A DNA stretch of 64,000 bases from Loxodes magnus (taxonomy: Eukaryota > Ciliophora > Karyorelictea > Loxodida > Loxodidae): the NCBI GenBank assembly GCA_946699065.1, contig CAMPDV010001466.1:52091-116090 (forward strand). The letters run 5' to 3'. Each line of letters starts with the position of its first letter. Within the stretch, counting starts at the first letter, position 1. Shown here in pieces: positions 7,226-41,764 of this stretch. A program made the position numbers and the translations under genes. The notes under the pieces are model-generated. The model was not told the DNA's origin. It worked only from the letters and a program-made list of their open reading frames with translations, and did not search any database.

Positions 7226-8068
7226 ATGAAATTCTGCCTAACTTATGCTGCTAAAAGCTAATAAATAAGATCATTTATGACCAAAGTAAAGGTTTTTCTT
7301 TAATATTTTTTAGACTAAATCCTTAGTGGTCACACTTCGCCTATTTGCTCGGTAGCCATATCAAGGGATCTAAATTGAATTGTATCAGGTTCGTACAACC
7401 CTGAAAATTCGATAAAGATCTGGAATTTCCAGACAGGTGCTCTCATAAGAACTTTAACGGGGCATACTTCTCCTATTACTTCGGTAGTAATCTCCTATGA
7501 CTCTAGATATATTATATCGGGATCTGGAGATAAAACCATAAAGATCTGAAATTTCCACAATGGTGATCTCCAAAGAACTATAACGGGTCATACTGATATA
7601 ATTAAATCGGTAGTAATCTACTATGACTCTAGATATATTATATCGGGATCTTGGGATAAAACTATAAAGATTTGGGATTTCTAAACTGGTCAGCTTGTGC
7701 GAAATCTTACTGGGCATTCCGGCTGAGTTTTATCGGTAATAGTGTCTAAGGATAATAGGAATATAATATCGGGTTCTCGGGACAAGACAATTAAGATATG
7801 GGACTTCTTTTCTGGTTAGTGTATTCGTACTCTTCAAGGTCACTCAAGTTATGTATCAAGTAATCAGTTAAGAGTTGATTAAAGTGTTATCTTTTCTGGT
7901 TCAATTGATAATACAATCAAGATCTGGAACTTTGATAAAGGTGAGTGTATCTAGATTTTGTAAGGGCATACAGATGATATATAATCTATAGCATTGAGTG
8001 TTGACAATAGATGGTTGGTATCGGGAGGATGGGACAGGACAATTAGAAAGTGGAGAATTTCGAATTGA
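7226..8068 (+). CDS. WD40-repeat protein
   Basis: Six consecutive WD40 blades are visible, each with the GH...SV...SGS.D.TIKIW signature. Examples are GHTSPITSV, YIISGSWDKTIKIWDF and, in the last, VSGGWDRTIRKW. WD40 proteins form beta-propellers that scaffold protein complexes; the partner cannot be told. The frame is continuous for 280 codons from ATG 7226 to TGA 8066-8068, which falls just after the last blade (RISN). A later in-frame ATG at 7277 is an alternative start. In one blade the invariant Trp is encoded by TGA (ATC TGA AAT within IKIWNF), and another TGA sits in GHSGWVLSV, so TGA means Trp inside this gene and stop at its end. Gln is often TAG or TAA. Six blades is fewer than the usual seven, so the protein may be a short form or begin further upstream. 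Flanks are AT-rich on both sides. Confidence 0.88.
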
Positions 8069-8640
8069 GTAACTTGCTATTTGACTTAATTAAATTTTAC
8101 GATTAAATATATAAGATATTGGTTATTCATTTAAATGAATGTTTAATGATAATAATGTTTTTTGTTATATGAAGTTTTTGTTTTTTATTTATTTATTAAA
8201 AGGTTGTATATTCTTAAATATTCTTGGCTTAAAAAAAAGGGTGAGTAATATAGGTTATAGAAATTAGTGAGGTATGTTGATTTAAAGTGGGTAATATTTA
8301 AAAATATTTAAAATATAATTTTGGTAAAAGAAGATGTATAATAAGTTTAAGTTTAATTTTATTCTATAAAATTTTATAGATTTATTTTTAGATTTTGTAA
8401 ACATTTTAAGTTGCGTTTAAATTTTAGATTTTTTTGTGAAGTAGTTAAAATATTATTTATAAGGTTAAAGTTAGTTTATAATTTTGATTATTAATTTATA
8501 ATTAAAAAATTTAATTAAGTATTTCATTTATTTTATTTTTAATTAAATTTTGTTTTTTTATTATTTATTTTTGATGATTGATATTTATTATTGCTTATTA
8601 TTATTTATTAATTATAATTAATTATTATTATATATTATTA
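8069..8640. other. AT-rich intergenic stretch
   Basis: T-rich then AT-rich non-coding DNA following the WD40 gene, ending in short TTATTA-type runs near 8580-8650. No gene, RNA or repeat unit supported. Confidence 0.5.
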
Positions 8641-8690
8641 TATATTATTTTTTAAAACCGCCATAGTTGTTCGAAGGTGAACAACAAGGT

Positions 8691-8930
8691 CATCTTCATC
8701 AGAGGTTGGGGAAGTTAAGTACCCATAATCGACTTTATGTCTTCCTCTGCTTTAGTTTGACCTCGAGACATAAGATTCTTAGACCTTCGACACTGACTTG
8801 GCTTGGCTTCGTTTATTTTTAATTCTGGAACAAAAAGAAATAATATTGCGAACTTCATCAGAGGTGGGGAATTTAAGTACCCATAATTGACACATGTCGC
8901 CCTCTGCTTTGGTGATGCAATGAGACACAA
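8691..8930 (+). repeat. diverged direct repeat pair
   Basis: A segment beginning CTTCATCAGAGGT and running through TTAAGTACCCATAAT occurs at about 8693-8735 and again at about 8855-8892. The homology continues more weakly into the following CCTCTGCTTT stretch of each copy. Spacing is about 162 bp. GC content is higher than in the surroundings. Function unknown; it may be the remains of a tandem element. Confidence 0.55.
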
Positions 8931-8988
8931 TCCTGCCATGTCCTTGGACCTCCAGCAAGTATTAAAGATTACGAGTATTCTAAAATTA

Positions 8989-9104
8989 TATCAGTATTTA
9001 ACATTTTTATCAGTACTGAATAATTATACCAGTATTGAACAAGGTTTATCAGTATCTGATAATTTTATCAGTAACAAACATTCTTGTCAGTATGAAACAT
9101 TTTT
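8989..9104 (+). repeat. 19-20 bp minisatellite, six units
   Basis: Six degenerate units beginning TATCAGTA (variants TACCAGTA, TGTCAGTA) start at 8989, 9008, 9027, 9047, 9066 and 9085, so the period is 19 or 20 bp. Units share the core CAGTA followed by a TGAACA/TTAACA-like tail. The array ends against the GC-rich terminal repeat at 9107. Confidence 0.75.
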
Positions 9105-9106
9105 TT

Positions 9107-9150
9107 AAAGAGCTGCGCACCAACGAGAGTGCTACGCGCTCTATAATCAA
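9107..9150 (+). repeat. GC-rich terminal repeat (fold-back family end)
   Basis: The motif GCGCACCAACGAGAGTGC followed by TACGCGCTCTATAATC matches, in the same or inverted orientation, the repeats at 20547-20582, 34705-34745 and 35436-35474. The last two are the two ends of an inverted-repeat element, so this is probably a solo end of the same family. Confidence 0.6.
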
Positions 9151-9169
9151 ATTTATTTATTTATATAAA

Positions 9170-10051
9170 ATGGCTTCTAAGAAATAACAGAACTTTGAAC
9201 AAAACATTTAAACAGGAAAATTCTCTAAAAAATAAAAAAGCGAAATAATTACAATGAGTGAAAATGAGAAATATGATTGATATGACGAACATTAACCACT
9301 TGGAAATCCAGAATTAAAAAAACTTCCGACACAAACTCAAATAGAAATATTATCTAAGTCATTAAAAGAGTTTATGTTTAAAAATAGATACCTCACTGAT
9401 AAAGTAGAAAAATTAGAAAAACTAATAATGTCTTTACTTGAGAAACAATATTAATAATCATAAGAAATAGAAGACAAACTGGAACAAAGAATTCTTTAAA
9501 TTTAATAATAAATTCAGGTTACGCCATTTTCGTTTTAACAGAATTAATCAGATCCTATGAAAATAGAAAATGAAGCCTCAAATTAAAATAAACAGTAAAC
9601 GTTTATTTAAAATAAGTAGTAAATTTAAATTAAATAAGTGTTACAGGAATAATAGTTTAAAAGAAGAATAAAATGCTACGTGTGCAATAAACAACACCAA
9701 TGAAAATACTGCTACTAACTAAGCGAAATTTAAAGAAAGAATAAATAAGATATTTTTAGAAAACTATTTAGGATATATCCAACATAAAGCGGAAAAATTT
9801 ATAGAAAAAAATTCTTTAATTCAAATCTTAATCCTTGGAGAAATAATTAGGAACGCTACATGCAAGATGAAGACTATTCAGAATATTAAAGGATGGTGCG
9901 CTAATGAAGTGCTACACTGCCTAACTAAGCCTAGTAGAAATTCAAGACAAACTAATGGAGACAAGCTGATAGAATAGGTCAGATGACTGACTACTAAGGC
10001 TTTAACAAAGCTTTTTAACTTTAACTTTAACGTTCATGTTTCATTTGTTGA
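9170..10051 (+). CDS. coiled-coil protein with CCHC-like zinc knuckle, element-type ORF
   Basis: A continuous frame of 293 residues runs from ATG 9170 (a second in-frame ATG lies at 9254) to TGA 10049-10051. The order of parts is a basic Lys/Gln-rich N-terminus, a heptad-like helix around residues 65-110 (contains DKVEKLEKLIMSLLEK), a Gln-rich linker, then a Cys-x2-Cys-x3-His-x4-Cys cluster (KCYVCNKQHQWKYC) and an Arg/Gln-rich tail. Classical nucleic-acid-binding knuckles have four residues before the His, so this one is one residue short. The layout is like Gag or LINE ORF1 proteins that bind nucleic acid. The region after the knuckle resembles the unit at 14.9-15.6 kb. No reverse transcriptase is visible nearby, so the parent element family is not known. 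Confidence 0.55.
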
Positions 10052-10244
10052 AAAAATGTTTAATTCATTATCAAGGATAAATTATTATATTACCACCTGC
10101 TTACTAGCTAATGAGCTTATATTTACATGTCCTATTTTTATTTTCTTAGATTCTTGCGCTCCACCAGGGAGCCCTCCCTAATATATGCAAATTAATTTAG
10201 TCCCTTATGAATCTCTTTAAATATGTATCAGTTCTTTTTTATAC

Positions 10245-13203
10245 TCAGGATGCTGGTGGAAATACTAGATCAAAAATGTAAATTACTTAAATCGAATAAA
10301 ATTCTAGTAGTTTATTGTCTATTTTAATAACATTTTAGGTATTATCTACAGTGCCTTGAGTCAATTCTTTATTAATTGTTATATACCTTCCTTGAACATT
10401 GCACATTTAATATTAGTTCCTCCTTCATGAACCTTGTTTGATAAAATTTTAGAGTTGAGGAGATTAATAATTTTATTATCGTATTATCTTTTCACTTTCT
10501 CTTTCATTTTTTCATTTAATAGTGCGTTTAGCTGGAGTAATTTAAATTCCATCTTCTTCGTGTTTTCTTTTGAAAGTATTTGATTATTTAATAACAGTGC
10601 GATTCTAGTTTTCAATATAGTTAATGTTTGCTTAGCTTATTTAATCTTTTTATTAAGGCTTGGTTTTTAGATCAAATAATTCTTTCATTAATTTCTTATT
10701 ATTTTCTTAAATTTTACTCAAACTTTTAATTGTTACAAATGAAGTTCATATTTAACTAATGAAAGAATTACTGGAGTTTTATATAATTCTCATCAAGCAA
10801 ACTTGTCTAGCAAAATTGATTTTATTATTCGATTTTTATTGTACTATATGAAGCATTCGAACATTAAGCTTTTACTTATATTTTTTTATCCTAACATATA
10901 TTGTCTGTTTAAGTTTGACTAACTTTATGTGAATTTACTTTCATTTAAGTTCTCATTTCAACTTGAATTATTTTTTGTATTTGTAACTGATTAGTATAAA
11001 TTATTGTATTATTTTCTAATTCTCTTTGTTTTTATATTAATATATCTTAAATGATATTTTATGTTCATTGTAACTCTGCTTTCAACATCGCATATTACTT
11101 ATTTCCATCTTAATATTGCTTTTTTAATTCTTTACTCAAATATAAAGTTTAATTCTATAGCATTAAACACTAATCAGTAGATTATTGATTTAAATATTAA
11201 TAATTTTATAATTAAGCTTCAGTGTTTATTTTTTATTAATAAGCTTCTTAAAGTTCTTGTTAGATATGCTTTAATGCTTATTCTTATTATTTATATAATT
11301 CAATTTAAACTTGCAGGAAGTTTATTTCTTTAAGGGCTAGTATATCACTAGATTATAAATTAGTTTGTGTTTATTTATGACTTTTAACTAGTTCTGTTTA
11401 AGTAAATTATTCATTACTAAGAGTTTATTCAATATATTTCTTCATCTGCTTAAATTAACTCTTTTTTTGAGCTATTATAATTTATTTATATTGATTATTC
11501 ATTTCTTGCAGAAATGCTTATACCAGTCTAGACAATTTAATTAATAAGGCAAATTTAGGAATTTGCTTAAACTTCTTTATCTAAAAATTATATTTAACTT
11601 GTTTCAAAATTTAACTGTTTAGACCGTATTTTTAATTATTATTACTCTTATAGATCTAACATTAGCATCTAATTTTCATTTTTTATTTCCTTTATTTTCT
11701 TAGTAATTTTATTTATATAAGTCTTAAAAATTGCTTCATAAGAACTTTTTATTACTTAAATGTTTTGATTATTTTATGTAAGAATAGTGTTTAGTTTTTC
11801 TAAAGAATTGTAACTATCTGTTAATTGTTATATTTTAATCTTGAGTTCTTTTACTTCATTTAGAAACGTTTCATTTTATTTTTCAACTTAAAAAGTATCT
11901 AAAATACCCATAGTATTATTTACTGTTTTTAACTGGTAAGAAAATTAATTATCAAAAGTATCTTACTATGAAGAGATATTTTTGATACGAGTGTTGAGAC
12001 TGAGGTATCAATCTAGTTTTTTTAGCTATAAATATATTTTTGGGTTTTAGAGTTCTTGTTAGTTAATTTCCACTTCTTAAGGAATTTTGAAGTAATTTAA
12101 ACAGAATTCGAAGGAGTTTATAACTAGAGATTAACTAAAACTATTTAGTAAAGCTCTTAACAAGTTTATAATATGCTTTACGGATTTGAGTTGAAATTAA
12201 TCAGGATAAATTTTTAGAAAGTAGTCGAGCATCTGCATATGCTCATTTAATTAGATGGCAGCTTCTTTATTTTAGGTAAAGAAGAGTCGTCAAGATTTTA
12301 ATCCCACGGTATTTAGAAATAATTCGTTTTTTTATATAGATTTTCATTTATTAAATAATTTAATTATTTTATAGATTTTATATTTATTATTCAAGTTCTT
12401 TAATTTAATTTAAAAACAACTTTTACTAGTTTCAAAATCTTACTCCTAGGATTATATTTGATCCTTTACTTCAATAGGTTAAGCTTAAGGTTATATGTTT
12501 TTGATTTCAAGATTATTTAACTTTTTAGATTTAAATTTTCTTAATTCTCTTAGTTTAAAAGATTACTCAATTTTGAGTTTTAGTACTATACATGATTATA
12601 CTCTAAATTTTAAGTAAATATGGAATATTCTATAATTCCGTTATTATTTTCATTTTGATTAATTAAAATATTTTTTGTATCTTAAATATCTTTATTATTC
12701 CCCCTATTATTTAAATTTCCTGTAGATGTTTTTGATACCTTCTATTAAACTGTGGCGGAAAAATTAGTTTTCTTTGTTAAGTATATTTCTCAACTTTTAA
12801 AATAATCTTAAACTGATGACATTGCTCCAATGAATACTTAAGTTAGATTTAACTTTAAACTTAAAAGTTGTTAGCCTAAAAATGGTAGACCCATTATAAT
12901 CTATTATTTATCTGTATTTATTTATAATTATTTATTATTTTTATATATAATTGAAAATGAACATTTGTTCTAGTTTTCTGAGTTGATAATTTGGTGTTGT
13001 GAAGATTGCATCAAGAGTACTCTCATAAAAGATACCACCATAGATAAAAAAGAACGTGCCCTTTATGTGTAAGTCTTACTCTTTTGAGGGTTCTCTCTAA
13101 TGGTACGAGAAGCTAAATAATTAACACTGAAATCCAGGTATCAGAGTTCTCTTTCTTCACAAGTCTCTAATATGGGTAGGAGTATGAAAATAACTAAAGA
13201 CAT
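10245..13203 (-). CDS. long coiled-coil protein, with apparent short introns
   Basis: Read on the minus strand, the frame beginning at ATG 13203 (in frame with a later ATG at 12894, MGLPFLGQQ) encodes a Lys/Gln/Asn/Ser-rich protein of roughly 970 residues ending at TGA 10247-10245. The middle, from about 11880 to 11640, is a strong helical coiled coil (for example FLNEVKELKIKIQQLTD and ITKKIKEIKNENQ). A later basic stretch has KKAILRWKQ. Two frame switches are best explained by very small GT-AG introns. One is 23 nt at 11988-11966, whose removal restores a clean reading frame. A second is 14 or 20 nt near 10736-10720. Such proteins commonly serve in ciliate basal bodies or cytoskeleton, but no specific family is recognised. 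The N-terminal 100 residues are less certain because another minus frame there also looks protein-like. Confidence 0.6.
11966..11988 (-). other. candidate 23-nt intron
   Basis: On the minus strand the segment starts GTATCA and ends CATAG. Upstream sequence reads ...STL in one frame; downstream sequence reads QDTFDNQF... and then continues as a good coiled coil only if these 23 nt are removed. The TGA-poor, charged sequence on both sides supports splicing rather than a random frame change. Confidence 0.5.
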
Positions 13204-13247
13204 GACTGTGATAAATTATAATTTTTATTTTTTATTTAAAATTTAAT

Positions 13248-13430
13248 ATGATTGTGCCATTTAGCACAAAGATTGGTACTACATTAATTCCTTCTAACTC
13301 CAGCCTTCTTAAAGAACTTCAAGAATTAAGAGAAGAAGTAATCAAATTTGATTCTGAAAGCAGAGAAAGAAAAAATGATACAACGAAGTAAAAATAAATA
13401 AAGACAATGTGGATCAAAGAGACCAGGTAA
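13248..13430 (+). CDS. short coiled-coil ORF, possibly a first exon
   Basis: ATG at 13248 opens a frame of about 60 residues (MIVPFSTKIG, then a Glu/Leu-rich helix LLKELQELREEV and a basic end) before the sequence becomes AT-rich. No TGA follows closely; a GT-AG segment starting at about 13426 could be an intron. It lies divergently from the long minus-strand coiled-coil gene, about 45 bp from its start. No family recognised. Confidence 0.3.
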
Positions 13431-14039
13431 AATTAGAATCATTCTAGACTATTATAAATATTAAAATTTTGTTTTTTTGTAAATCATGGTTATCTTAACA
13501 TGGTTGTACTACGCTAATTTATTTATTATGATTATTTTCAAAAGGATATTTTTGCTAAATATTCTATTATTCTATTATTTCTAATATTTTTATTATCTCA
13601 AAAATTTTTAATTTTTAGTATTTCTTATAAAATTTTTTATGCAATTTTTTCAATATTTTAGTTAGATCAAGCAAAACATTACATTACTTTATATACATTC
13701 AAATATTTAGTTTCTTAATTATCAAAATTTATATAAAAGTTACATTATTAGCATGCATAAGATAAAAAATAAATAAACATTTAACTATAATTAAAAATTT
13801 TTTAAATATTCTAGTCTCACTTTATTAAGTTACAAAATAATGAGGCTAAAATTAACATTAAGTGATATTTAAATTTCACTTAAAATCATTTTACATATGA
13901 TTCAATATTGTACAGATTTTGCAAACTATTTTCTTTACGGTATGACAATCTTGAAATACTATATATCATAAATGTTGATTAAACAGATTCTAAGAGATAA
14001 ATTTATGGTATTTGGTTGCTATTTGCATTAAAATACCAA

Positions 14040-15645: not shown

Positions 15646-15659
15646 AATATAAAAAGTTG

Positions 15660-16622: not shown

Positions 16623-19514
16623 ATGTCAGAAGCAACTTAATATAATCGATAAGGAATCTTAGCATGCCAATAAGGAAGATATCTTGAAGCTATTGAGCAT
16701 TTCAATATAGCTATAATATTAGATCCTAACTATGCAGATGCACATGCCAATAAAGGAAACGCATTGGAAAATTTAGGGAAAAACTAAGAAGCTATTTAGA
16801 ACTATGATATGGCTCTTAGACTTGATCCTAATTTAGAAGCTGCACATCATAATAGAGGGTCTGCATTGATGAACTTAGGAAAGTACTAAGAAGCAATTTA
16901 GAGCTTCGATAAAGCTATTAAAATAAATCCTTTCTTAGAAATTGCATACTGTAACAAAGGATCTGTATTGGAAACTTTAGGAAAATACTAAGAAGCTATT
17001 TAGAGCTATGATCTAGCTCTTAAAATAGATCCAAATAATGCAATAACACATCATAATAAAGGATCTGCGTTGGAAAAGTTAGAGAAATGCTAAGAAGCTG
17101 TTTAGAGCTTTGATATAGCTCTAAAACTTTAACCTAATTTAGCACCTGCACACTGTAACAAGGGCTTGGCATTAAAAAAGTTGGAGAAATACCAAGAAGC
17201 AATTTAGAGCTTTGATAAAGCTCTTAAAATAGATCCAAATATTGCAATTGCACATCATAATAAAGGATCTTCCATGGAAAAGTTAGGGAAATACTAAGAT
17301 GCGATATAGAGCTATAATATAGCTCTTAAATTAGACCCTAATTTAGTTACTGCACACTGTAGCAAAGGATCTTCACTTCTAAACTTAGGTGAATACTAAG
17401 AAGCGATTTAGAGCTATGATCTAGCTCTTAAATTAGACCCTAATGATGTAATTGCACATCATAGCAAGGGATTTTCCCTTCTTTAACTAGGAAAAAATTA
17501 AGAAGCGATTTAGAGCTTTAATGTAGCTCTAAAACTTGATCCTAATTTAGCACTTGCACATCATAATAAAGGATTTGCATTGAAAAACTTAAGAAATTAC
17601 TAAGAAGCAATTTAGAGCTTTGATAAAGCTCTTAAAATAAACCCAAATATTGCAGTTGCCCATCATAATAAAGGATCTGCGTTGGAAAATTTAGGGAAAT
17701 ACTAAGACGCTATTTAGAGCTATGATATAGCTCTTACAATAGATCCTAATTTAGTAACTACACATCATAATAAAGGTTCAGCATTTATAAACTTAGGTAA
17801 ATACTAAGAAGCAATTTAGAGTTATAATCTAGCCCTTAAACTAGATCCGAACTTAGAGACTGCGCACTGTAACAAAGGATTAGCACTTCTAAACTTAGGG
17901 AAATACTATTAAGCAATTTAGAGCTTTAATATATCTCTTAAATTAGATCCTGATAATTCGATTGCTCATCATAATAAAGGAACTGCCCTTCAAAACTTAG
18001 AAAAATACTAAGAAGCAATATAGAGCTATGATAAAGCTCTTTAATTAGGTTCTAATAATGGAATTACTCATAATAGCAAAGGAACTATACTTCTAAAATT
18101 AGGGAAATACTAAGAAGCAATTTAGAGTTTTAACTAAGCTATTAAACTTAATTCTATTCTCCCAGAGCCCTATAAGCATAAAGGTTATTCTCTTTTTAAG
18201 CTAAAAAATTTTTCTGAAGCAATCTAGTGTCTTAACATCGCTATTCAACTCAATTCCAATTATGCGGAAGCTTATCACGTCAAAGGTCAAGTTTTGCAAG
18301 CTTTAAATGAGAATAAAGAAGCACTTGAATGTTTTATTATAGCTAATAAATATGATTCCTAACTTAAAATTCCCTAAATAGATAATGATTCTTTAGATTG
18401 ATAGTAATAGAATTCCATTACTATTGAAAATGTTTGACAACTATTATATTAAAATGGGGCAGGATATGATAATACATCTCAAATTAGAATATTAAACTAT
18501 AAAATATTAATTCCCAATAATCAATATCTAGATGATTTATAAGTATTATCTAAAGATTAATACGGAATTGTATATCTTATTACTATCGATGGATATAATT
18601 ATGCACTTAAAGTGTTTAACTAAAAGAATGAATAACAGATGATAATAAATTAGTTCTATTTTGAGTGCAAAGAACTTCTACTGATAAATAGCTTAAGAGT
18701 TTAAAGACTTGCAGGAGTTGCTATTGATACTTAAAATTAAGGAAGTTACAATTTATGCCTTTTATTAGATTTTTAGTGAAAATGAAGTTTATTCTAATAA
18801 ATACAGACAAAATAACTATTCAAAGAAAGTCAAATAGGATCTCCTTTAAGATATTATTAGAAACTAAATTTACTTAGTTAAGTAGCAGAAGGATTAAAGG
18901 CAATACATTCTAGAAACTTTATTCATAAAGAATTGAAATCTCTAAGCATTCTACTAGATGAGAAATATTCTCCCTAAATAGTTATTTTTGGACTATTCGA
19001 TAATACAAACTGATTAACAACAATAGAATAAAGAGGATTTCATCAATGAATGGCACCTGAATAATTTGAAAAAAATGTGACTATGAAGAGTGATATCTGA
19101 TCTTTAGGCTGCATAGGGATAGAGATATTCAATGAAGAACTACTTTATCCAAATATAAATGAATAAGAATAACTAAAATAAGTAGTTTATATTAATAAAA
19201 TAATTCCTATGTTTTCAAGCGAAATATTATAAGAACCTGAATTAACTGATCTATTCTACAGATGCTTAGCTTTCGACCAGAACATTAGACCTGATATAGA
19301 TAGTTTCATAAATTAGATAGAAAAATTAAAATAAAAGTGAAATCCATAAAAATAAGATGGAGATATAAGTTAGTAGGGATAAAATAAAACGATGAAGTAA
19401 GAATAAAGTATAAAGTAATAAAGTTAAGATTAAGCTCTTTTATTAGAAGAAGGATCATAAGAAACAAAGTTTGAAAGTTTAAAGATAGATGAGATTAAAG
19501 AGAAGAAGAGTTGA
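16623..19514 (+). CDS. TPR-repeat protein with C-terminal pseudokinase-like domain
   Basis: One uninterrupted frame of 963 residues from ATG 16623 (MSEA) to TGA 19512-19514. Residues about 10-600 are some 16 tetratricopeptide repeats of 34 residues, each like LGKYQEAIQSYDLALKLDPN. From about residue 620 a protein-kinase fold follows: a weak nucleotide loop (SKDQYGIVYL), the beta-3 lysine in YALKVF, then HKELKS where HRDLK is expected, IFGL where DFG is expected, an intact MAPEQFE and SDIWSLGC. The catalytic Asp and the Mg-binding Asp are therefore both replaced, so a pseudokinase is likely. TPR arrays bind partner proteins, so the product is probably a scaffold or signalling adaptor. The tail is Gln/Lys-rich. 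TGA codes for Trp several times (LDWQQ, ENVWQLL, DIWSLG). The stop is supported because similarity to the paralogue at 39173 ends there (EKKS). TPRs here are more diverged from one another than in the paralogue. Confidence 0.88.
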
Positions 19515-20010
19515 AGGGAGAAACTTTATATAGATGAAACTATATAATTTAAGTTTTTTATAAAAGTTAAATAACTAGAAAAGTTTCTCTATTTATAGTA
19601 ATTGCGATTCTATTGAAATAAGTAATTTATACTAACTATGTAAAAATGATAATAATTATAGATTATTTAAATGCAACAATAACTCACTCTATTCTAATTT
19701 AAAAGCCCTCTTAACTAATTCAATTAAATATAAAAGAATATATTTATAAAACTCTATATTTACACTTTTATAATTATCTTGCCTTTATAATTTATTTGTA
19801 CCTTAAATTACTTATTTATAAGCATCTTCAAATAAACTTTATTAAAGCATTATTTCCATTTATTTAAACTGATAGATTATTAATTAATCAATAGAAATAC
19901 TTAAGGTAGTTCATAGAAGATAGTACCCTCCATACTTCAATCATTCTCCTTTAATTCCATCAAATAAAACGCTTCACATTTACAACTTCTTTTTTAAATC
20001 TTAATTTTAA
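19515..20010. other. intergenic region
   Basis: AT-rich DNA downstream of the TPR-pseudokinase gene. No gene supported; no terminator structure seen. Confidence 0.4.
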
Positions 20011-20823: not shown

Positions 20824-21825
20824 ATGTAGAAGCAGCTGTTAATTTGATATTTTCGTACTTAAATTAAAGTTCAGATAAATCCTTCGAGGTGAAAGAAGAA
20901 AAATAAGAATTAACGAAAGAGACGGAAAAAGCCCAAAAAGGTAAAGAAAGATGATAAAGATGATAAAGATGATAAAGGAGATAAAGATCCTTAAAACAAG
21001 GAAAAAGACCCAAAAAGGAAAAATTATACTTAATGTGATCCTGCATGAGTCTTGCTAACATCTAATCACTCAAGCGTTTCTTTCATAAAGTCTAATAAAA
21101 ACTTAATATTTGAAAATGCTTAGCATGTTATAAGTAATAGTGATAAATAGCAAACTGTTGTAATAGACAAAGAAATTGAAATCTTTTTTAAAAAAGTAGT
21201 ATTTCTTTAGTTTGGAATTTTACTTAAGGATAATTTATAAAATATTGAAAATATTGAGGACAACTTCTATGGTTTTTACTATAATAAAACAGAAATAAAG
21301 ATCTCTCTTGGGTTATTTGCTAGGAAGACAAATCTTTCTGGTAGTATAGAAATAGAGATAAACACAATTGAAGAGACAATGAGTTACAAATTTGATGATT
21401 AGGTACAAAAGATAGATGAGATTCCTTTCATATCAGTCACATTTTAACCGTTGGTTATTTATTTAACACTGGAGATGAAGTAAAGATGGTTAAATTCGAT
21501 AAAATTCCTTGAACTCTCATTTTAATTTTATCGTATGTTTTAATAAAATAGTTTTAAAAAGTATAACTTACTGGGATAGTAGATGAAATTTTATTTTTCA
21601 TTTAGGTACTTTGGAGATTTTTACAATTATTTTAATTTATTTTAGCAAAATTTATATGGATAAACTTCAAAGGAAATTAGTGATTACTTAACAAGATCTT
21701 ACTTAAACCATTTACATAAGTTTGATGTTCACAAACCTTAGGAGATAGACGAGTAGAACTAATGTAGATGGGTTACTACCTGAAGGCCAGCAAGCGTTGT
21801 TCCAATTGAGAGGATAAATGACTGA
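20824..21825 (+). CDS. SPRY-like domain protein with Lys/Asp-rich linker
   Basis: Single frame of 333 residues from ATG 20824 to TGA 21823-21825. The N-terminus is basic, then comes a run of Lys-Asp-Asp repeats (residues about 45-60, from a GATGATAAA microsatellite). A beta-rich domain follows, beginning CDPAWVLLTSNHSS and including VVIDKEIEIFF and a GILLKDN...YGFYYN segment. This order resembles SPRY/B30.2 domains, which bind protein partners, but the match is by eye. The C-terminal third is different and contains TTWRPASVVPIERIND. Four internal TGA codons read as Trp, including the one in CDPAWV. The single-pass membrane protein gene follows 132 bp downstream on the same strand. Confidence 0.6.
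20942..20979 (+). repeat. 9-bp coding microsatellite
   Basis: About four tandem copies of GATGATAAA (last copies degenerate), encoding the Lys-Asp-Asp run of the SPRY-like protein. Confidence 0.7.
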
Positions 21826-27165: not shown

Positions 27166-27168
27166 AAA

Positions 27169-27241
27169 CACCCTTGACGGGACTTGAACCCGCAATTTCT
27201 TCCTTAGGAGGGAAGCGCCTTATCCATTAGGCTACAAGGGC
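27169..27241 (-). tRNA. tRNA-Arg (anticodon CCT)
   Basis: The 73-nt minus-strand cloverleaf is complete. The acceptor GCCCTTG pairs with the 3' end, the D arm is AGCCTAATGGATAAGGC, and the anticodon stem CTTCC/GGAAG encloses loop CTCCTAA (anticodon CCT). The T arm is GCGGGTTCAAGTCCCGT, with a canonical B box GGTTCAAGTCC. It reads AGG codons. No intron. It lies 60 bp from tRNA-Ser on the same strand. Confidence 0.95.
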
Positions 27242-27301
27242 ATCTATAATTAATTGTTTCACTATAATAAGTATCATTTTTTATTAAGAATTTACTAAAA
27301 A

Positions 27302-27382
27302 CGACACCAGCAGGATTTGAACCTGCGCGGGAGAACCCAACAGATTTCAAGTCTGTCGCCTTAACCACTCGGCCATAGTGTC
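27302..27382 (-). tRNA. tRNA-Ser (anticodon TGA)
   Basis: An 81-nt minus-strand tRNA with the long variable arm typical of Ser (GGGTTCTCCCGC region). The acceptor GACACTA pairs with TGGTGTC, the D arm contains GAGTGGTTAAGG, the anticodon loop CTTGAAA gives anticodon TGA, and the T arm is GCAGGTTCAAATCCTGC. It decodes UCA. A T run in minus sense follows the 3' end only weakly. Confidence 0.95.
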
Positions 27383-28499
27383 TTATTTTTATATGTTTGA
27401 CCCCACTTATAAACCTTACTAAATATAGTTCTTGACCTAAAAGTTTGTTTACATAAGTTTACTCTCAATCTAGTTATAAAATGTATATAATGAAAATTAT
27501 ACTTTCTGTCTTTCAAATAAGTGACTATTATAAAAGGATTGCTTCAAAATTTTTTAAAAAGAGCTAGATTATTTTAGAAGCAAATGTTCCGTGTTTTTAA
27601 GCTAAATTAGATAACATTTTTAAAGTGAAATAATAAATTTAATATAAATAATATCAACAAAATAAACATCTAAATGTAAAAGATATAAGATTATAATAGC
27701 AATCAATAAATGCTTAATTATATCAAAGGTTTAGCAGCTGAATAATATCTAAATTAAGTTTCTCAATAATTGTATCATATCGCAAATAACTAAATAAAAT
27801 CGCTTAATTTGGTATAAGAAACGAAACTTTCTACTTGCTATGAAGATTTTTTTTGATTTTATTTTTTAAAAAGTATAAGAATATATAAAAAATCATAATA
27901 ATATGTTCTAACTTAAGATTATTTCTTAAGCAGCGTTAATTATTTTTTGCATATTATTTGACTCCATTTGAAATAGTCGAGAAAATCTGAGTAGGATTTT
28001 TATTTCGATTTCTAAAATATGATAGATCACGGATTTAAAACAAAAAAGGATTCTTATGCATATTCAAAGCAGATCATCAAAGATGGCTTTATGTTATTCT
28101 CTAAATTTTATGGAGATTTATATTTTATGAAATAAAGCAAGGAAAGTGAAAATCAATTTTTTAAGAATGAAGTAGATATAGAAATAAGCCTCAAATTTGA
28201 AGTAGTTTTTTTTTAATATTTATTAAGAGAAATTTATCTTAAGCTCATTTTAACTTTATAGCTTAGTATAGTTCAGTACTCTTATAGCAAATGTATTAAA
28301 TATATAGTAAATATGAATTCAAATGCTGAAACTTGAATAATTTTAAAGATTATTATATAATCATTTGCCTCATTTAAGACTTATATTTATATATGCATGA
28401 GAAATATTCTAGCAACTTAAGATAATTACTAAAGCGATGCTTTTCTTGTAACAATAAGGAAAAATAGTTTAAGTAAAACCTGTCATAAGTTTAATAACA

Positions 28500-28572
28500 G
28501 CCTCTATGGCTCAGTTGGCAGAGCATTCGCTTAGTAAGCGAAAGGTCCGTGGTTCGAGCCCGCGTGGAGGCT
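28500..28572 (+). tRNA. tRNA-Thr (anticodon AGT)
   Basis: The acceptor GCCTCTA pairs with TGGAGGC, the D arm is TGGCTCAGTTGGCAGAGC, and the anticodon stem TTCGC/GCGAA encloses loop TTAGTAA (anticodon AGT, read as IGU). The T arm is GTGGTTCGAGCCCGC. A run of seven T directly after the 3' end is a good RNA polymerase III terminator. No intron. Confidence 0.95.
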
Positions 28573-29230
28573 TTTTTTTAGAGGAAAAATAAAAAATAAT
28601 TAAATATTCTTAAATAAATATTTAAGCTCCCATTCAATTATCTAGTTTCATATTAGTTCTCTTTAATTAATATTAAACTTACTTTAACTTCTCTTTATAG
28701 CTTATTCATACTTATTTGATAAAGAAATTTCTAATAAATATTTTCCTCAAAAAAGGGAAACGCTTAGTTATAAAAAAGAGAGCAAAGAAATCAATCTTTA
28801 GATAAACTGTTTCGTATGCAGCTTTATCTAACGTTTTGTCTATTTAATAAGATATTAATTTTACACTTTTTATATCTGTAAACTTTTAAGAGTTCTGAAA
28901 TCACAAGATGAAATGAATAAACTAAATTTTAGTTATAATAAGTTTTATTGATTATCAAATAAAAAAGAAAGAAATATATATTAATTATGGATTAACTTAT
29001 TATGCGAAGTATATTTTCTTTAAAGCAGCTTTATTTTGATTCAAATTTTAATAGTTTTACAAAAGAAGGTAAAAAAGAAAAGAACTTGAACCTTTTTATA
29101 AACATTCATTTAAAAGCCTAAAATAAAATAAAGTGAATTAGTAAATTTATTGATTAAATAGAAAAATAAAAAAAGAGAGAATATAATAGAGTTTCCCAAT
29201 TATACTGAAAGCTTATTCAATTTTAAAAAA
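28573..29230. other. AT-rich intergenic DNA
   Basis: A/T-rich sequence with no supported feature after the tRNA-Thr terminator. Confidence 0.4.
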
Positions 29231-31731: not shown

Positions 31732-32190
31732 ATGTCAAAACCAAGAGTCTTTGTTAGTTCAATTGTTGATGCACCTTTAGAAAAATTATGGGCAGTGATA
31801 AGTGATTTTAATGGTTTGCCTATTTGGCTTCCTTTCTTTATTAAAGCCTCTGAAATAGAAGGAGGAAAGCCAGCGAATAAAGTTGGTTGCATTAGAAAAC
31901 TGACTACAGTTGAAGGAGTTATACGCGAAACTTTGCTATCTTTGGATGAATAAAACCACAGTGTTACATACAATATAATCGAAGGTCCTGAAAATCTTTT
32001 AAATTACTAAGTGACACTAGTATGCAAACCAATTACAATGCAACCAGAAAAATCTTACGTTGAAAGTTCAGCTTTCTTTGACGCACCAACGAAGCAAGAG
32101 CTAGATTTACTGATACAAGACATTCGCGATAATCTTTTCGTTGCAGGATTCAAAACTTTAAACGAGAAACTAAACTCCCAATAGCAATGA
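31732..32190 (+). CDS. SRPBCC/START-fold (polyketide cyclase-like) protein
   Basis: Single frame of 152 residues from ATG 31732 (MSKPRVFVSS) to TGA 32188-32190 (KLNSQQQ). The opening VSSIVDAPLEKLWAVISDF and LPIWLPFF are typical of the SRPBCC superfamily, whose members (Bet v 1, START, polyketide cyclases) form a helix-grip cavity that binds hydrophobic ligands. The second half has the expected alternating strands (GCIRKLTTVEGVIRETLLSLDE) and a C-terminal amphipathic helix (AGFKTLNEKL). Length fits the family. In the standard code it would appear cut at a TAA after residue 73, which here is Gln. The ligand cannot be inferred. No partner genes or shared promoter are evident. Confidence 0.85.
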
Positions 32191-34440: not shown

Positions 34441-34699
34441 TAAAATAAAAATAAACGTTTTTCTATGTAGAAGGCGACAAAAGAAGCATCAACTTCAACA
34501 ATAAGAAAAAAATTAAAACTTCTTAATTAAATAAATATTTCCAAAATCTGAGTCTAGACAATTTATATATGGGATAATTAAACAATCTTATAAATTTTGA
34601 AGTTATTTTAACTATTTATCTCCCTGCTAATATTTCTAATATTTTATCTTTATAATGCAATAATTTCCTTGAAACTAAAAGTATTAAAGAAAAAAACTT

Positions 34700-35472
34700 A
34701 CATTACAGAGCGTGTAACGCCTCAATAGCGCGCGACTCTCATAATACAATTTTTAAAGTTGTAAATGTTCGGATTTGAGAACTTCCTGTGTGATAGAACA
34801 CTCATTTGAACTTTTGTGTCTTCTATAGAGCTGTGATTGAAGTGCTATTCCAAGAGACCTTAGTGTTTGACATCTTTCAACAAAGATATTACTCGATGTC
34901 TCAAGTCCTGTCTTTTTTAAGTCTTGTCAAGATTATTGAACGATTCTTTATACACAGGATTCTTCCAGATACCGATGGTTTAGTTAATTTTCGTGGGAGG
35001 ATTGGTTTTCCCTATTTAAATTATAATATAATTAAAAATTTAATAACATTAATGAATTTCTATATTTTATAGAATGTTAAATATGTAATTTAAAGTTATT
35101 TAATCTAATGGATATTTGCTAGTTTTTATTATACCTGTTGCATATTATTATATCAAATAAATAGGGAGGAGCAATCCTACAACTGAAATTTACTTAAATT
35201 CTGATACCAGGAAGTACCCCATGGGTGAAGATCAGAACAAGGATCTTGGTAGAAACCAAGGAAAGACAAGATTGAATAGGCATCAAGTAGCGTTAATGAT
35301 GAAAGATATCAGATACTAAGGTCTCTTAGGGTAACATTCCAATTACAGCCTTATAGATGAAAAGATTCACAAGGGAACGCTAGTACTGTGGAAGATTTCA
35401 GCAAAAAAAATTTTATCTTAAAAATCTTTATTAAGATCTGCGCTCCATTGAGGTGCTACGCGCTCTATAATC

Positions 35473-35476
<4 letters not shown>
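34700..35476. mobile_element. fold-back (long inverted repeat) element, MITE-like
   Basis: The ends are inverted copies of one GC-rich motif: ATTACAGAGCGTGTAACGCC at the left, and GGTGCTACGCGCTCTATAAT at the right. Inside, the arms remain recognisably complementary: the left segment around 34825-34920 (contains AAGAGACCTTAGTGTTTGAC) matches the reverse complement of about 35260-35345 (AGATACTAAGGTCTC region) at roughly three bases in four. Arms are about 300 bp with an AT-rich centre of about 100 bp. No transposase is encoded, so it is non-autonomous. Solo ends of the same family lie at 9107 and 20547. Target-site duplication is not clear. The short standard-code ORF inside is not credible as a gene. 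Confidence 0.7.
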
Positions 35477-35481
<5 letters not shown>

Positions 35482-35503
<22 letters not shown>

Positions 35504-35512
35504 TTATTCATC
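35482..35512 (+). repeat. (TTTA)n microsatellite
   Basis: Seven or so tandem TTTA units directly next to the right end of the fold-back element; a shorter TTTATTTATTT run also adjoins the solo end at 9150, so the repeat may belong to the element's tail or its target preference. Confidence 0.7.
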
Positions 35513-36599
35513 TTATATTTCTATAGATAAAGAAGATGTAAATAAAATGACTAAAATGAGAATATATAGTTGCCTTTATACTCACTGCTCTTTTAAAGAT
35601 TTACTTTTGGTAACTCTGGAAGAAAGAGTGCAAAAATAGAATGTTTATCTCTTAGAAAAAAGGTTTAAGAGGCTTTATTATAAAATAGACTGAATTCCTA
35701 CATCACCAATATTATATGATCCTTTATTTCTTAACTACATATAGAATATCAAGTATATTATGATCCTTTTATTGGTTCTTATATTGATAGTTTAATTACT
35801 ACAAAAGAGAAAAATTTTTAAATCAAATATTTATATGGAAATTTGGATAAAAAACCTCAATATATAGAAGACTTAATTAAGATACATTAAATACTCAACC
35901 AGAAAAAGATGAAAACCAGAGATTCTAGGTAGCAGTAACACATAAATTTAGCTAAATAGCCTCATTTATGATTATTCAAGTTTAAAAATTAACAGATAAT
36001 CGAAATATATGGTATTAGGAGGGTTTGCATGCATAAAATTAAAAAATGAGAGAATTTAAAATTTTAGATGATATTGATTTTAAAATATATTACCTGTTGC
36101 TGCTTACATAATAATCAAACTAATTTAAACTTCTTAGATCTAAACTTGAGATACAAATTAAAAAGTTTAATGAGAAATTGGATTTATTATTACTTTATTC
36201 ACTTGTACTTGGAGTCCCGATATATTGTTGATGTTATTCAATTAAGAAACTCTATGTGATCCATACTCATATGAAGTTGTTTGATATAGTAGATTTATAA
36301 TGGTTTATAATCAGAGAATGGAGAATGGACATGATGAGTATTAAATTAAATCGATTTATTAATAATAAATCATGTTAAATAAAAAGTAAAGAGCACAGTA
36401 AATAAATATGCTGATTCTTGAAATTAAGCATGAAAAGAGGCTTTGATAGATTAAAAAAAATGAAAGGGAATGAGACTATTAAAATTTAAGAAGAAAAATA
36501 TTCAGTATAGAATAATAATTATAAATGGAAGGTTACTATACATTATTTTATGTCTCGTATAGATATAAAGTATTATTAGATTTCTAGGTTATAGTATTT

Positions 36600-36990
36600 C
36601 TAGAATTTTTCATATCATATAAATAAAAAAAAATAATGAAAGTAACTTGTCTGGAGGATAATTACATTCAAATAATGATGAAAACATTTAGTAGCTATCT
36701 AGAAAATTCTAATTTCAATTTTTTTAGTATTATGATCTAAATCCATTAAATAACTTATAAGGGACAAGAGGAATAAAATGTAGATTAAGAGGATTAAGCA
36801 TGAGAATAGAAATAGAAATGCGAATACAAATACAAAGTTAAATGTTTGGCGTTCTTGGGTATTTCGACTTCTATATTGTTTTAGATGCTAAATATAAAAG
36901 TTTAAATATCTCTACAAATCTTCTCCTTGCTATGCATAATGCCACTGAGGCATTCATTCACCTAGATAAGGATTAGTATCTTTGATCTTG
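36600..36990 (+). CDS. short coding-like stretch, frame unresolved
   Basis: Two overlapping plus frames look protein-like. One is from ATG 36637 (MKVTCLEDNYIQIMMKTF, then KGQEEQNVDQEDQAW). The other includes GVLGYFDFYIVLDAKYKSL and LLLAMHNATEAFIHLDKDQ. They may be two exons or a frame-shifted remnant. The 3' end overlaps the minus-strand coiled-coil ORF by about 30 bp. No family recognised. Confidence 0.3.
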
Positions 36991-37644
36991 CATATCACTC
37001 CAAATTTGTTGCAATATGATCTTTCTCTTTCACCTTTTAGTTTTAGTTATTGTTGTATCTTCTTTCTATTCTCTAACTTCTTCTAGTAGTTTCAGTATTC
37101 TTATTTAAATTTTTTAAATTTCTAGCACCTTTTCTACAAGATGCTTACGAGAATAGCATCTTTTTGCTTCTCGTTTGATCTAAATCTTGAGTTATTTTCT
37201 CCTTTTATTATTTTTGGGGTATTTCTTTGATCTTGTAAGTCCATTTAACGGTGCAATTTTTGCTGGTTTTCTTCTATTTTTTTGTTGTTGTTGTCATGTT
37301 CTTTCTGCTTCTATTATTAGTGTTATGATTAATTGTTCTAGCCTTGTGAAATGTTTTAAAATGTGTTAATGCTTCTTTCTTAGGTCATGATTCTCGCTTT
37401 CATTCCCTCTGGAAGTTCAAGTTTTTCCATTTAACTTCTTATTGTCTTTCTTCAACTTTTTGACATCTTCCTTGAGGTCCAGCACTATTTTGATCAGCTA
37501 ATCGTAGTTTATTTACTATTATGTGGTGTGATTGGAGACTTCCGATTAATCATATTTTTTACCATTTCCTAGGATTTTATTCAGAGGCAGGAGATTCAGC
37601 CTGATGGGTGACCTTTTTGGTACTCTTTTTCTGGTCCTAGCCAT
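36958..37644 (-). CDS. basic coiled-coil ORF, possible relative of the CCHC units
   Basis: Minus frame of 228 residues from ATG 37644 (MARTRKRVPKRSP) to TGA 36960-36958. A very basic N-terminus is followed by a coiled coil (KIVLDLKEDVKKLKKDNKKL) and a long Lys/Arg/Gln-rich C-terminal half. The general plan, size and GC elevation resemble the CCHC element ORFs at 9.2 and 15 kb, but no intact knuckle is seen in this frame, so it may be a decayed copy. This link is an inference. Confidence 0.4.
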
Positions 37645-37744
37645 TTTAGGATGTCTTTAACTCCTACCTTTTTGGATTTGCGAAGAATCCTGGTATCTTT
37701 TTTTAGGATGAGAATATAAATAAAGGAAAGAAAAGTAAGTTATA

Positions 37745-39060
37745 ATGAGATTATTAAAGAGCATTAGAAAATAAAAAGCTAATAACTTCAGCAAGAAATG
37801 CAACAGCTTCTTTCTATTTCTCAAGGATTTAAGTTAAATTATTTAAACCTTCAAGAGAATAGAGCCAAATAGAAAAATTATATCAAATAATGACTAAAAT
37901 CTTTCTTTATAAAGTAATACTATTTAATTTTAGGGGAATATAATAAATTCCTAGTAAAGCTTGAGTCAAGAATAAATTGAGGTAAATCAGGAGATTATAA
38001 AGTATAATAGAAAATGGAAATTAATCAAAGAATTAGATAAAAGCAAACTGATAAAGTGTTAAGAAACTAATAAAGCAGAAAAATGACTTAAATTGAGTTA
38101 AATTAAGAAAAGTTGTCTTATAAGAAGTTAAGGAAAAGAAGGAAAATTGAAAAAAATGAATTTTTAAATAGTAATGATATTACTTAAAAAAGAAAAAAGT
38201 TCACAAATCCTAAAAAACGAATAGGATAAATCTTTTCCACATAGAAAAATGATATTCTTAAAGGGCCTCATTTAAATAATACAGCTATTAATTAAAAAAT
38301 TATTATGAAGATATAGCTTTGCGAAGCAATTTTTTATATTAAATACTTAAATTGCAAGTTTGAACTTAAGTTGATATCATTAAATTAGTTTGCTTTTTAA
38401 ATAAAACTTTTATATTCAATTAAGATATTAGATAGTTGTGAATTTCTTCTCTTTAATATTTTTTATTATATAAGTAAGCGAAAATATCATTAATAAAATA
38501 TTTCTTAACTAATTTGCTTTAAATAGCATTTGAATTTTTTAACTACCTAAGAAAATGTTTCGATGCTTATATATAAAATTATCTTAAAATTCGTGGTTAA
38601 TCCTTTAATTTTTTTAAAAATAAATGTTAAATAAAAAAGGATCAAGAGAGTTTCAATAGTTTATTCTGTCAAATAGAAGAAAAAGCCAGAAATAAAACTA
38701 AAAATAAAGATATTATATCACTCCATTAAGATAGATAGCAAGCATTTATATCTAACAATGATTTAAACATAAATAAATTCAAAATAAAAAATAAAAAAAG
38801 GAGAAAGGAATAAGAGAAAGAAAATTCGCAAAAAACAATGATTTGAATTATCTGATTAAAGAACATATCCTTGAAATGAAGAAGAAAAGAAATCTAAAAT
38901 AATTTTCATTTAATAAGAAATTTTTTTAGCTGAAAGAAGTGAAAATAACTTTAAAGTGGTAAAAAAGAACTACAAATAGCACAAGCCAAATAAAATTTAA
39001 GTTAAAATATAAAGTAAATTCTAATATTGATATAATAAATAAGTTTCTTTATCTTAGAAT
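37745..39060 (+). CDS. Lys/Gln-rich hypothetical gene region
   Basis: Two Lys/Gln-rich stretches lie on the plus strand. One at about 37933-38320 contains KFLVKLESRINW, LSYKKLRKRRKIEKNEF and KKRIGQIFSTQKNDILKG. One from ATG 38624 (MLNKKGSREFQQFILSNRRK) contains KNNDLNYLIKEHILEMKKKR and ends before about 39060. The 300 bp between them is AT-rich and may be intronic or intergenic, so this may be one gene or two. The sequence is helical and basic. It lies just upstream of the second TPR-pseudokinase gene on the same strand. No family recognised. Confidence 0.35.
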
Positions 39061-39172
39061 TAAGCATAATAAAAAGTAAATATCTTCTATTTATTATTTC
39101 ATTATATTAATTAATATTTATTAATTAATATGAAACTTTAAATCTCATATTCAATCTATTAATATTTTTAAA

Positions 39173-41764
39173 ATGTCAGAAGCAGCTTAGTATAATCGAA
39201 AGGGAGTCTAATTAATCAAAGAAGGAAATTATCATGAGGCTATTGAGTACTTCAATATAGCAATAATATTAGATACTAATGATGCAACTGCGCATGGTAA
39301 CAAAGGATCTGCTCTTCTTTATTTAGGAAAACACACAGAAGCGATATAGAGCTTTGATATAGCTCTAAAACTAAACCCTAATAATGCAATTGTGCATGGT
39401 AACAAAGGATCTGTATTAGATAGATTAGAAAAACATACAGAAGCGATATAGAGCTTTGATATAGCTCTAAAACTAAACCCTAATAATGCAATTGTGCATC
39501 GTAACAAAGGATCTGCTCTTCTTTATTTAGGAAAACACACAGAAGCGATATAGAGCTTTGATATAGCTCTAAAACTAAACCCTAATAATGCAATTGTGCA
39601 TCGTAACAAAGGATCTGCTCTTCTTTATTTAGGAAAACACACAGAAGCGATATAGAGCTTTGATATAGCTCTAAAACTGGACCCTAATGATGCAACTGCA
39701 CATCGTAACAAAGGATCTGCTCTCTTTTATTTAGGAAAACACACAGAAGCGATATAGAGCTTTGATATAGCTCTAAAACTGGACCCTAATGATGCAACTG
39801 CACATCGTAACAAAGGATCTGCTCTCTTTTATTTAGGAAAACACACAGAAGCGATATAGAGCTTTGATATAGCTCTAAAACTAAACCCTAATGATGCAAT
39901 TGCGCATGGTAACAAAGGATCTGTATTAGATAAATTAGGAAAACATACAGAAGCGATATAGAGCTTTGATATAGCTCTAAAACTAAACCCTAAAGATGCA
40001 ACTGTACATCATAACAAAGGATCTGTATTTGATAAATTAGGAAAACACACAGAAGCGATATAGAGCTTTGATATAGCTCTAAAACTAAACCCTAATGATG
40101 CAATTGCGCATGGTAACAAAGGATCTGTATTAGATAAATTAGGAAAACATACAGAAGCGATATAGAGCTTTGATATAGCTCTAAAACTAAACCCTAAAGA
40201 TGCAACTGTACATCATAACAAAGGATCTGTATTTGATAAATTAGGAAAACACACAGAAGCGATATAGAGCTTTGATATAGCTCTAAAACTAAACCCTAAT
40301 AATGCAATTGTGCATGGTAACAAAGGATATGCTCTTCTTAAATTGAAAAAGTACTAGGAAGCGATTTTTAGCTTTAATTTAGCTATTAAACTAAATTCAA
40401 TTAAGCCAGAATTCTTCAAGCATAAAGGTTATTCTCTTTACAAGCTAAAAAATTTTTCTGAAGCTTTCTAATGTCTTAATAAAGCTATATAACTTAATTC
40501 CAATTACGCAGAAGCTTATTATGACAAAGGTCTAGTTTTGAAAGCTTTATGAAAACATAATGAAGCCCTTTAATGTTTTATTGAAGCTAACAAATTAAAT
40601 CCTTAGCTAAAAGTTCCCTAAATAGATAATGATTCTTTATATTTATAATAATAGAACTCCATTACTTTAGAAAATATTTGACAGCTTTTATATTAAAATG
40701 GCGCAGGCTAGGATAATAAATCCCAAATTAGAGTATTAAACTATAGAATCTTAATCCCTAATATTGAATTTCTAGATAGCTTATAAGTACTAGATAAAGA
40801 TTAATACGGAGTTGTCTATCTTATTACTATCGATGGGTCTAATTATGCACTTAAAGTATTTCACTAAAATACTGATCTTTAGATTTTATTAGACTAGTTC
40901 TATTTTGAGTGTAAATAACTTTTATTAATAAACAGTTCAAAAGTTTTAAAACTTAAGGGCGTTGCTATTGATACTTAAGAGCAAGAAAGATATAATTTAT
41001 GTCTTCTAACTGATTTTTAGTGTAAAACGAGTTTATTCTAATAAACTTAGACAAAATAGCTATTCAAAGAAAGTCTAAAAGGTTCTCCTTTAAGATATTA
41101 TTAGAAACTAAATTTGCTAAGCTAAATAGCAGGAGGTTTAAAGGCAATACACTCTAGAAACTTAATACATAAAGAATTGAAGTCTATAAATATTCTAATA
41201 GATGAAGTGTATTAACCTAAGATAGTTATTTTTGGATTATTCGATAATACAAAATGATTAACCACAATAGAACAAAGAGGATTTCATCAATGGATGGCTC
41301 CTGAGTAATTTGAAAAAAATGTGACTTTGAAAAGTGATATCTGATCTTTAGGTTGCGTAGGAATAGAGATATTCAACGAGGAAATGCTTTATCCAAATAT
41401 AAATGAATAGGAATAACTAAAATAAGTAGTTTATGTTAATAAAATGATTCCTAGATTTTCTTGCGAAATACTATAAGAACCTGAATTAACTGATCTATTC
41501 TACAGATGCTTAGCTTTCGACCAGAACATTAGACCAGATATAGATAATTTCATAAATTAGATAGAAAAATTAAAATAAAAGTGAAATCCATAAAAATAAG
41601 ATGGAGATATAAGTTAGTAGGGGCAAATTAAAACGATGAAATAAGGTCAAGGTGAAAGCATATATAGTTAAATCTAAGAGCGATAGAGTATATTGTAAGA
41701 AGGAATGCAAGAAGAAAAGCTTGAGAATTGGAAGATAAGAGAGATTGAAGAGAAGAAGAGTTGA
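39173..41764 (+). CDS. TPR-repeat protein with C-terminal pseudokinase-like domain (paralogue)
   Basis: Single frame of 863 residues from ATG 39173 (MSEAAQYNRKG) to TGA 41762-41764 (EKKS). Residues about 10-420 are TPRs, ten of them almost identical to one another. From about residue 520 the domain matches the protein at 16623 closely: YGVVYLITIDG, NYALKVF, LIHKELKSINIL (for HRDLK), VIFGLFDN (for DFG), MAPEQFE, SDIWSLGCVG. The catalytic and metal-binding Asp residues are replaced in the same way, so both genes descend from an already inactive ancestor. Expected role: TPR-mediated scaffold coupled to a kinase-fold regulatory domain. The two copies diverge only after the terminal TGA, which supports it as the stop. 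The C-terminal tail (SIYSQIQERQSIL) differs in length from the other copy. Confidence 0.88.
39290..40330 (+). repeat. 102-bp coding tandem array, ten near-identical TPR units
   Basis: The string GAAGCGATATAGAGCTTTG recurs at 39338, 39440, 39542, 39644, 39746, 39848, 39950, 40052, 40154 and 40256, a constant 102-bp period equal to one 34-residue TPR. Neighbouring units are identical or differ at a few bases. The 204-bp block from about 39885 appears to be repeated exactly from about 40089, and the unit at 39478 is repeated at 39580. This is the mark of very recent unequal exchange. Confidence 0.92.

Follow-up and report, generated by a model that had tools for sequence, protein, structure and literature searches.

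Karyorelict ciliates use a nuclear genetic code (NCBI translation table 27) that has been described for Loxodes magnus itself (Seah et al. 2022, 2024). In that description, UGA serves either as a tryptophan codon or as the only stop codon, UAA and UAG occur in frame, 3′ untranslated regions (UTRs) are short and AT-rich, and a tRNA-Trp(CCA) with a shortened anticodon stem is present. For Loxodes, UGA is reported to mean tryptophan provided that a sufficient distance separates it from the poly-A tail downstream, and the AT-rich L. magnus 3′ UTRs to have a median length of 41 bp (PMC11441545). UAA and UAG (together UAR, or TAR in DNA) are given as glutamine codons in karyorelicts (PMC10553269), and the short-stem tRNA-Trp(CCA) has previously been reported for Loxodes (cited in PMC13092985 and PMC12005148). 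Here we describe how a 64,000-nucleotide stretch of the L. magnus macronuclear genome (the window; assembly GCA_946699065.1, contig CAMPDV010001466.1, positions 52,091–116,090, forward strand) compares with this and related codes, the genes in question being those for a WD40 protein, two paralogous TPR-pseudokinases (A and B) and an SRPBCC protein.

In Condylostoma magnum (Swart et al. 2016), as here, all three standard stop codons have a sense meaning; termination is proposed to take place near the end of the transcript, as it presumably does in the window; a short-stem tRNA-Trp(CCA) (PMC13092985) and a tRNA-Sec(UCA) (PMC4967479) are reported from this ciliate too. Unlike the genes examined here, however, which are closed by TGA alone, those of Condylostoma are described as using UAA, UAG and UGA as stops (PMC4967479). 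The nonstop code of Blastocrithidia (Kachale et al. 2023) likewise gives all three codons a sense meaning, with a tRNA-Trp(CCA) with a 4-bp anticodon stem for UGA (PMC13092985), but there UAR is given as glutamate and UAA as the terminator (PMC12153298). Between the window and the published karyorelict code no difference was found. The window almost certainly uses this ambiguous code: glutamine is encoded by TAA and TAG, while TGA stands for tryptophan inside coding sequence and is the sole stop, presumably terminating near the 3′ end of the mRNA. This is the code already published for L. magnus, and apparently for the assembly used here, and the novelty of the finding is low. The evidence comes from domain searches, comparison with solved structures, paralogues in the window and elsewhere in the genome, and tubulin and eRF1 as control genes. 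The assembly comprises 705,730,643 bases in 7,843 contigs (the L. magnus macronuclear assembly is published as 706 Mbp), and the GC content of the window is 0.248.

Sense meanings of TAA, TAG and TGA

The WD40 gene and the two TPR-pseudokinase genes have open frames that require TAA and TAG to be read as glutamine and TGA as tryptophan. Gene A contains 76 TAA or TAG codons and eight in-frame TGA codons, gene B 54 and five, and the WD40 gene has three in-frame TGA codons (Table 1). The frames of A and B encode TPR_1 repeats (Pfam E values of 3.4e-142 and 4.4e-115, respectively) and a protein kinase domain (Pkinase, 2.7e-28 and 4.1e-30). Both kinases have HKE at the position of what we take to be the HRD motif, so that pseudokinase is a fair name. 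The family is a large one with many near-alike copies: 150 genomic matches were scored, all with E values of 1.8e-96 or better, and one of these is found some 31 kb to the left of the window, on its own contig.

A preliminary description of the window had placed glutamine at TAA and TAG, a claim borne out by the open frames, by exchanges between paralogues and by eRF1. Genes A and B are 78.6% identical over 2,598 columns. Where one of the two has TAA (55 codon pairs), the other has TAA in 20 cases, ACA in eight, TAG in six, CAA in six and GAA in four, the remaining 11 being scattered; the 28 pairs with TAG comprise 17 with TAG on both sides, six with TAA, two with CAG and three others. Of the 55 pairs with TAA, 32 thus have TAA, TAG or CAA on the other side, and of the 28 with TAG, 25 have TAG, TAA or CAG; TAR is exchanged for CAA or CAG in eight pairs. 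One of two eRF1 copies elsewhere in the genome (L018) has 13 TAA and 7 TAG codons in frame, and no TGA, over 432 codons, and 40 of the 58 codon differences between it and the second copy (L019) are synonymous if TAR is glutamine. The eRF1 protein keeps NIKS, presumably the characteristic motif of the family.

That TGA is read as tryptophan inside genes is seen in comparisons with homologues, between paralogues and by codon position. The motif IKI(TGA)NF, which the preliminary description had singled out in the WD40 gene, is present at 7538; the same motif is written with TGG at 7412 and 7916, and its TGA (7547) aligns with a tryptophan of the WD40 structure 2ymu. Across the repeats of the gene, this column holds TGG in five of six and TGA in one. 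In gene A, the TGA of QwMAPE (w marking the TGA) aligns with the tryptophan of the B-RAF motif WMAPE, and the TGA of NTNw likewise faces a tryptophan in the comparison with solved structures. Nine codon pairs in the aligned A and B coding sequences hold TGA: four are TGA in both, and in one the TGA of A (19047) is matched by TGG in B (41291). When A and B are taken together with seven further copies of the kinase part, drawn from the 150 genomic matches, all nine have TGA at the terminal site and at NTNw/NTKw, SDIw and KwNPQ, and eight of nine have it at QwMAPE, B having TGG there; the nine are not independent, since the seven extra copies are close relatives of A. Divergence between A and B at codon positions 1, 2 and 3 is 0.15, 0.11 and 0.23 (linker and kinase), and the third-position excess holds, segment by segment, across the internal TGA codons from 18150 to 19338.

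Not every TGA lines up with tryptophan. The kinase motif SDI(TGA)SLG, said earlier to carry TGA at an invariant tryptophan, is indeed present at 19089 and 41333, but the structural residue that its TGA faces in gene A is tyrosine; in the WD40 gene, the TGA of HSGw faces a serine of 2ymu. Two further sets of observations weigh against the tryptophan reading. The remaining four of the nine A/B pairs with TGA have AAT, TTA, TGT and ACG on the other side (asparagine, leucine, cysteine and threonine). Contig C1503 carries long tandem arrays of near-identical WD40 units (loci L001–L008; 118 units found, of which the 112 with full flanks were kept), and here the codon in the conserved tryptophan column is TGG in 110 of the 112 and TGA in just one, most TGA codons falling instead in two other fixed columns that face phenylalanine or serine and that hold TGA in about half of the units. 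As a test of TGA as tryptophan, these arrays are neutral at best.

TGA as terminator

TGA closes each of the genes examined—the four in the window, three copies of alpha-tubulin and two of eRF1, a small sample—and no TAA or TAG terminator was found in any of them. The earlier claim that TGA closes the WD40, SRPBCC and both TPR-pseudokinase genes where similarity ends holds up for all four (Table 1). Several propeller profiles in Pfam end at residues 278–281 of the WD40 protein, codon 281 being the terminal TGA, and residues 6–147 of the 152-residue SRPBCC protein align with residues 10–147 of a solved relative of 150 amino acids (7tmu), after which its TGA is reached. GC content over 150 bases falls from 0.25–0.37 before the four window stops to 0.15–0.19 after them.

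Tubulin and eRF1 are essential genes in eukaryotes. The search for tubulin scored 150 Tubulin_C matches, and matches carry TAG and TAA codons. Five alpha-tubulin loci were fetched and three were read (L093, L095 and L097): they have no internal TGA, end in EEGYGEEGV followed by TGA, and are alike up to this codon but diverge within a few codons beyond it. Both eRF1 copies end in DEDFL followed by TGA, again with no internal TGA, and their 3′ flanks are still similar. On one contig (C64, about 601–934 kb) 22 Tubulin_C matches lying on either strand form a local tubulin cluster, and 21 of them resemble one another closely; the three that were read are alpha-tubulin. A putative Pelota-like (Dom34) gene elsewhere in the genome (L084) has one in-frame TGA and many TAA and TAG codons.

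For gene A, two stops were considered: TGA 19512 and TGA 19338, where the kinase domain ends. The later position is preferred because A and B are 0.97 and 1.00 identical in blocks around 19338, because the net indel before the later stop is 6 nucleotides, because three copies drop in identity beyond it, and because the untranslated stretch that it implies is short; 19338 keeps a residual chance. Up to the terminal TGA that A and B share, their MAFFT alignment has a single gap, 6 nucleotides long; the gaps after it are of 1, 2, 8, 7 and 1 nucleotides, and an additional one of 17 nucleotides, with which the alignment closes, is an end effect. The BLAST alignment has in addition, before 19512, three pairs of gaps that cancel out (1/1, 2/2 and 1/1 nucleotides, net zero), and gaps of 3 and 1 nucleotides after it, ending at 19565. 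Beyond the terminal TGA, divergence at the three codon positions is 0.41, 0.46 and 0.46 in one comparison and 0.39, 0.44 and 0.47 in another made segment by segment, a third-position excess much weaker than that within the gene. Copies L090–L092 are 0.965–0.971 identical to A over 19341–19512 and 0.70–0.71 beyond. The conserved stretch past the stop is short: when the query was extended 81 codons past TGA 19512 (residue 245), 109 of 123 genomic matches ended at residues 256–271, that is, 11–26 codons after the TGA. These ends fit a stop at residue 245, with a 3′ UTR beyond it that would be conserved and short.

Several results count against termination at 19512, or against the wider argument from position. 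Between 19338 and 19512, divergence of A and B shows no third-position excess (0.25, 0.23 and 0.21), and their identity drops already at about 19390. Three copies (L086, L088 and L089) are still 0.95–1.00 identical to A past 19512, with L087 at 0.77, and 14 of the 123 matches to the extended query reach residues 286–325, seven of these being the best-scoring (the query included) and seven being distant copies at 63–65% identity. Three window genes have internal TGA codons, 16 in all, and none of these is nearer to the stop than 58 codons, but the probability of this by chance is about 0.26, and the TGA-free last 57 codons are therefore no evidence for a positional rule. All of these observations are of genomic sequence.

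Two other explanations of the in-frame stops can be weighed against the same observations. Under a standard code they would be disabling mutations in dead gene copies, or errors of sequencing, and a family as large as that of the TPR-pseudokinases is what dead repeats may look like. The signature of purifying selection by codon position, however, runs straight across the internal TGA codons; TAG and TAA are carried by tubulin matches as well, and the first eRF1 copy has 20 in-frame TAR codons and differs from the second mostly by changes that are synonymous if TAR is glutamine. We give pseudogenes or errors virtually no credence. It might also be supposed that TGA is simply a tryptophan codon, as in codes where only TGA has changed, and that the terminators are something else. 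The well-supported internal tryptophans speak for this, but tubulin, eRF1, the SRPBCC and WD40 genes and both pseudokinase paralogues end at TGA and, since TAA and TAG are sense codons, no other standard stop is left, making this explanation very improbable. Homologues, paralogues, divergence by codon position and the phase of indels together support both readings of TGA, as tryptophan and as stop.

Other features of the window

The preliminary description had also read TGA as tryptophan in a motif CDPA(TGA)V. The motif is present (Table 1), but the frame in which it lies has no Pfam match and no PDB match, so this TGA cannot be assigned and lends the tryptophan reading no help.

Table 1 Genes and motif in the window (positions are those of the whole stretch)
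Feature	Position	Strand	In-frame TGA	Terminal TGA	Remarks
WD40 gene	7226..8068	+	7376, 7547, 7724 (tryptophan)	8066	Pfam WD40, E 2.1e-64; predicted start codon
TPR-pseudokinase gene A	16623..19514	+	18399, 18435, 18777, 18783, 19011, 19047, 19098, 19338	19512	One exon
CDPA(TGA)V motif	21034..21051	+			Motif present; no Pfam or PDB match
SRPBCC (Polyketide_cyc2) gene	31732..32190	+	None	32188	Pfam E 2.3e-14
TPR-pseudokinase gene B	39173..41764	+	40550, 40679, 41255, 41342, 41582	41762	Paralogue of A

Pfam searches covered the three forward frames at 8.2–12.7 and 19.5–39.3 kb, one frame each for the WD40 gene, A and B, the three reverse frames at 8.2–18.1 and 19.9–39.2 kb, and all six frames at 42.0–61.4 kb. 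Across the covered frames, only weak TPR matches were seen beyond the genes named above, one of them being the start of gene B. A self-training gene finder was abandoned after it had, in no more than three rounds on the window, come to recognise the TPR repeats only.

The right-hand part of the window contains an inverted duplicate of about 3.5 kb (43173–46652 and 51812–55387; 71–84% identity) with no Pfam match, and a direct repeat (46804–47489 and 56813–57473) of 88% identity. Genes for tRNA-Arg(CCT), tRNA-Ser(TGA) and tRNA-Thr(AGT) are found at 27168–28573, and positions 2001–6000 are very AT-rich, with a GC content of 0.15–0.18.

Transfer RNAs and the decoding of UGA

Of 220 candidate loci for a tRNA-Trp(TCA), which the preliminary description had expected, 30 were scanned and none held one; the 220 pattern matches compare with 305 in a reversed control. 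A tRNA-Gln pattern for anticodon TTA alone gave 375 matches against 800 in the reversed control, and thus no excess. What the genome does contain is tRNA-Trp(CCA) with an anticodon stem of 4 bp, the short-stem form associated with UGA decoding. A search pattern for tRNA-Trp built around a 5-bp stem had no match; a looser one had 238, compared with 63 in the reversed control, and among the 100 matches listed 67 share one string, 48 of them on contig C67 and 19 on contig C148. On C67 (L041–L049) the genes form a tandem array with copies 182–195 bp apart and on C148 (L082–L083) another, with copies mostly 241 bp apart. The mismatch at 27:43 is A-C in the C67 genes, for which all 107 predictions, made from loci that overlap, give a single sequence (the structure being drawn once), and T-C in the two C148 genes that were read. 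Two dispersed tRNA-Trp(CCA) genes on contig C110 (L080–L081) have a 5-bp anticodon stem.

Three genes for tRNA-Sec(TCA) (L009, L010 and L011) score above the Rfam gathering threshold, out of 52 matches, and are called tRNA-SeC(tca) by ARAGORN. Many matches to the model are weaker, and two that were checked (L012 and L013) proved to be tRNA-Ser(TGA). Because of the three genes, selenocysteine is probably a third meaning of TGA in the Loxodes genome. Swart et al. (2016, PMC4967479) have described such a triality of UGA, as tryptophan, stop and selenocysteine, in Condylostoma and in the karyorelict Parduczia, with which the Loxodes genome shares the presence of tRNA-Sec genes.

How might one codon be both read and obeyed as a stop? 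For Condylostoma and Parduczia, it has been proposed that UGA is translated by default, whereas proximity of the poly-A tail, probably via PABP, lets eRF1 terminate (Swart et al. 2016, PMC4967479). The context-dependent termination near the mRNA 3′ end put forward in the preliminary description agrees with the model printed for L. magnus and karyorelicts and proposed for Condylostoma and Parduczia; for the window itself, we infer from published work both that poly-A proximity would be the switch and that the short-stem tRNA would decode UGA. On this model, a TGA inside coding sequence would be read as tryptophan by default and would terminate when little of the mRNA is left downstream: with a 3′ UTR that is AU-rich and very short, the ribosome would find itself near the poly-A tail and the proteins bound to it, and eRF1 could win over the tRNA at UGA. 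A more elaborate version, which we regard as unlikely, is that tryptophan decoding is split between amplified arrays of 4-bp-stem tRNA-Trp(CCA) (at least 48 and at least 19 copies among the matches listed) and rare 5-bp-stem genes (two found), and that tRNA dosage, besides distance from the poly-A tail, would set the strength of UGA readthrough, with UGA also serving for selenocysteine and stop.

A codon that specifies an amino acid in the middle of a gene and a stop near its end is a striking exception to an unambiguous code and bears on how genetic codes evolve. What is gained here is independent confirmation of the karyorelict code from the genome sequence by itself, together with facts about the tRNAs—arrays of short-stem tRNA-Trp genes, few full-stem genes and three tRNA-Sec genes—that make the model of competition between tRNA and eRF1 testable.

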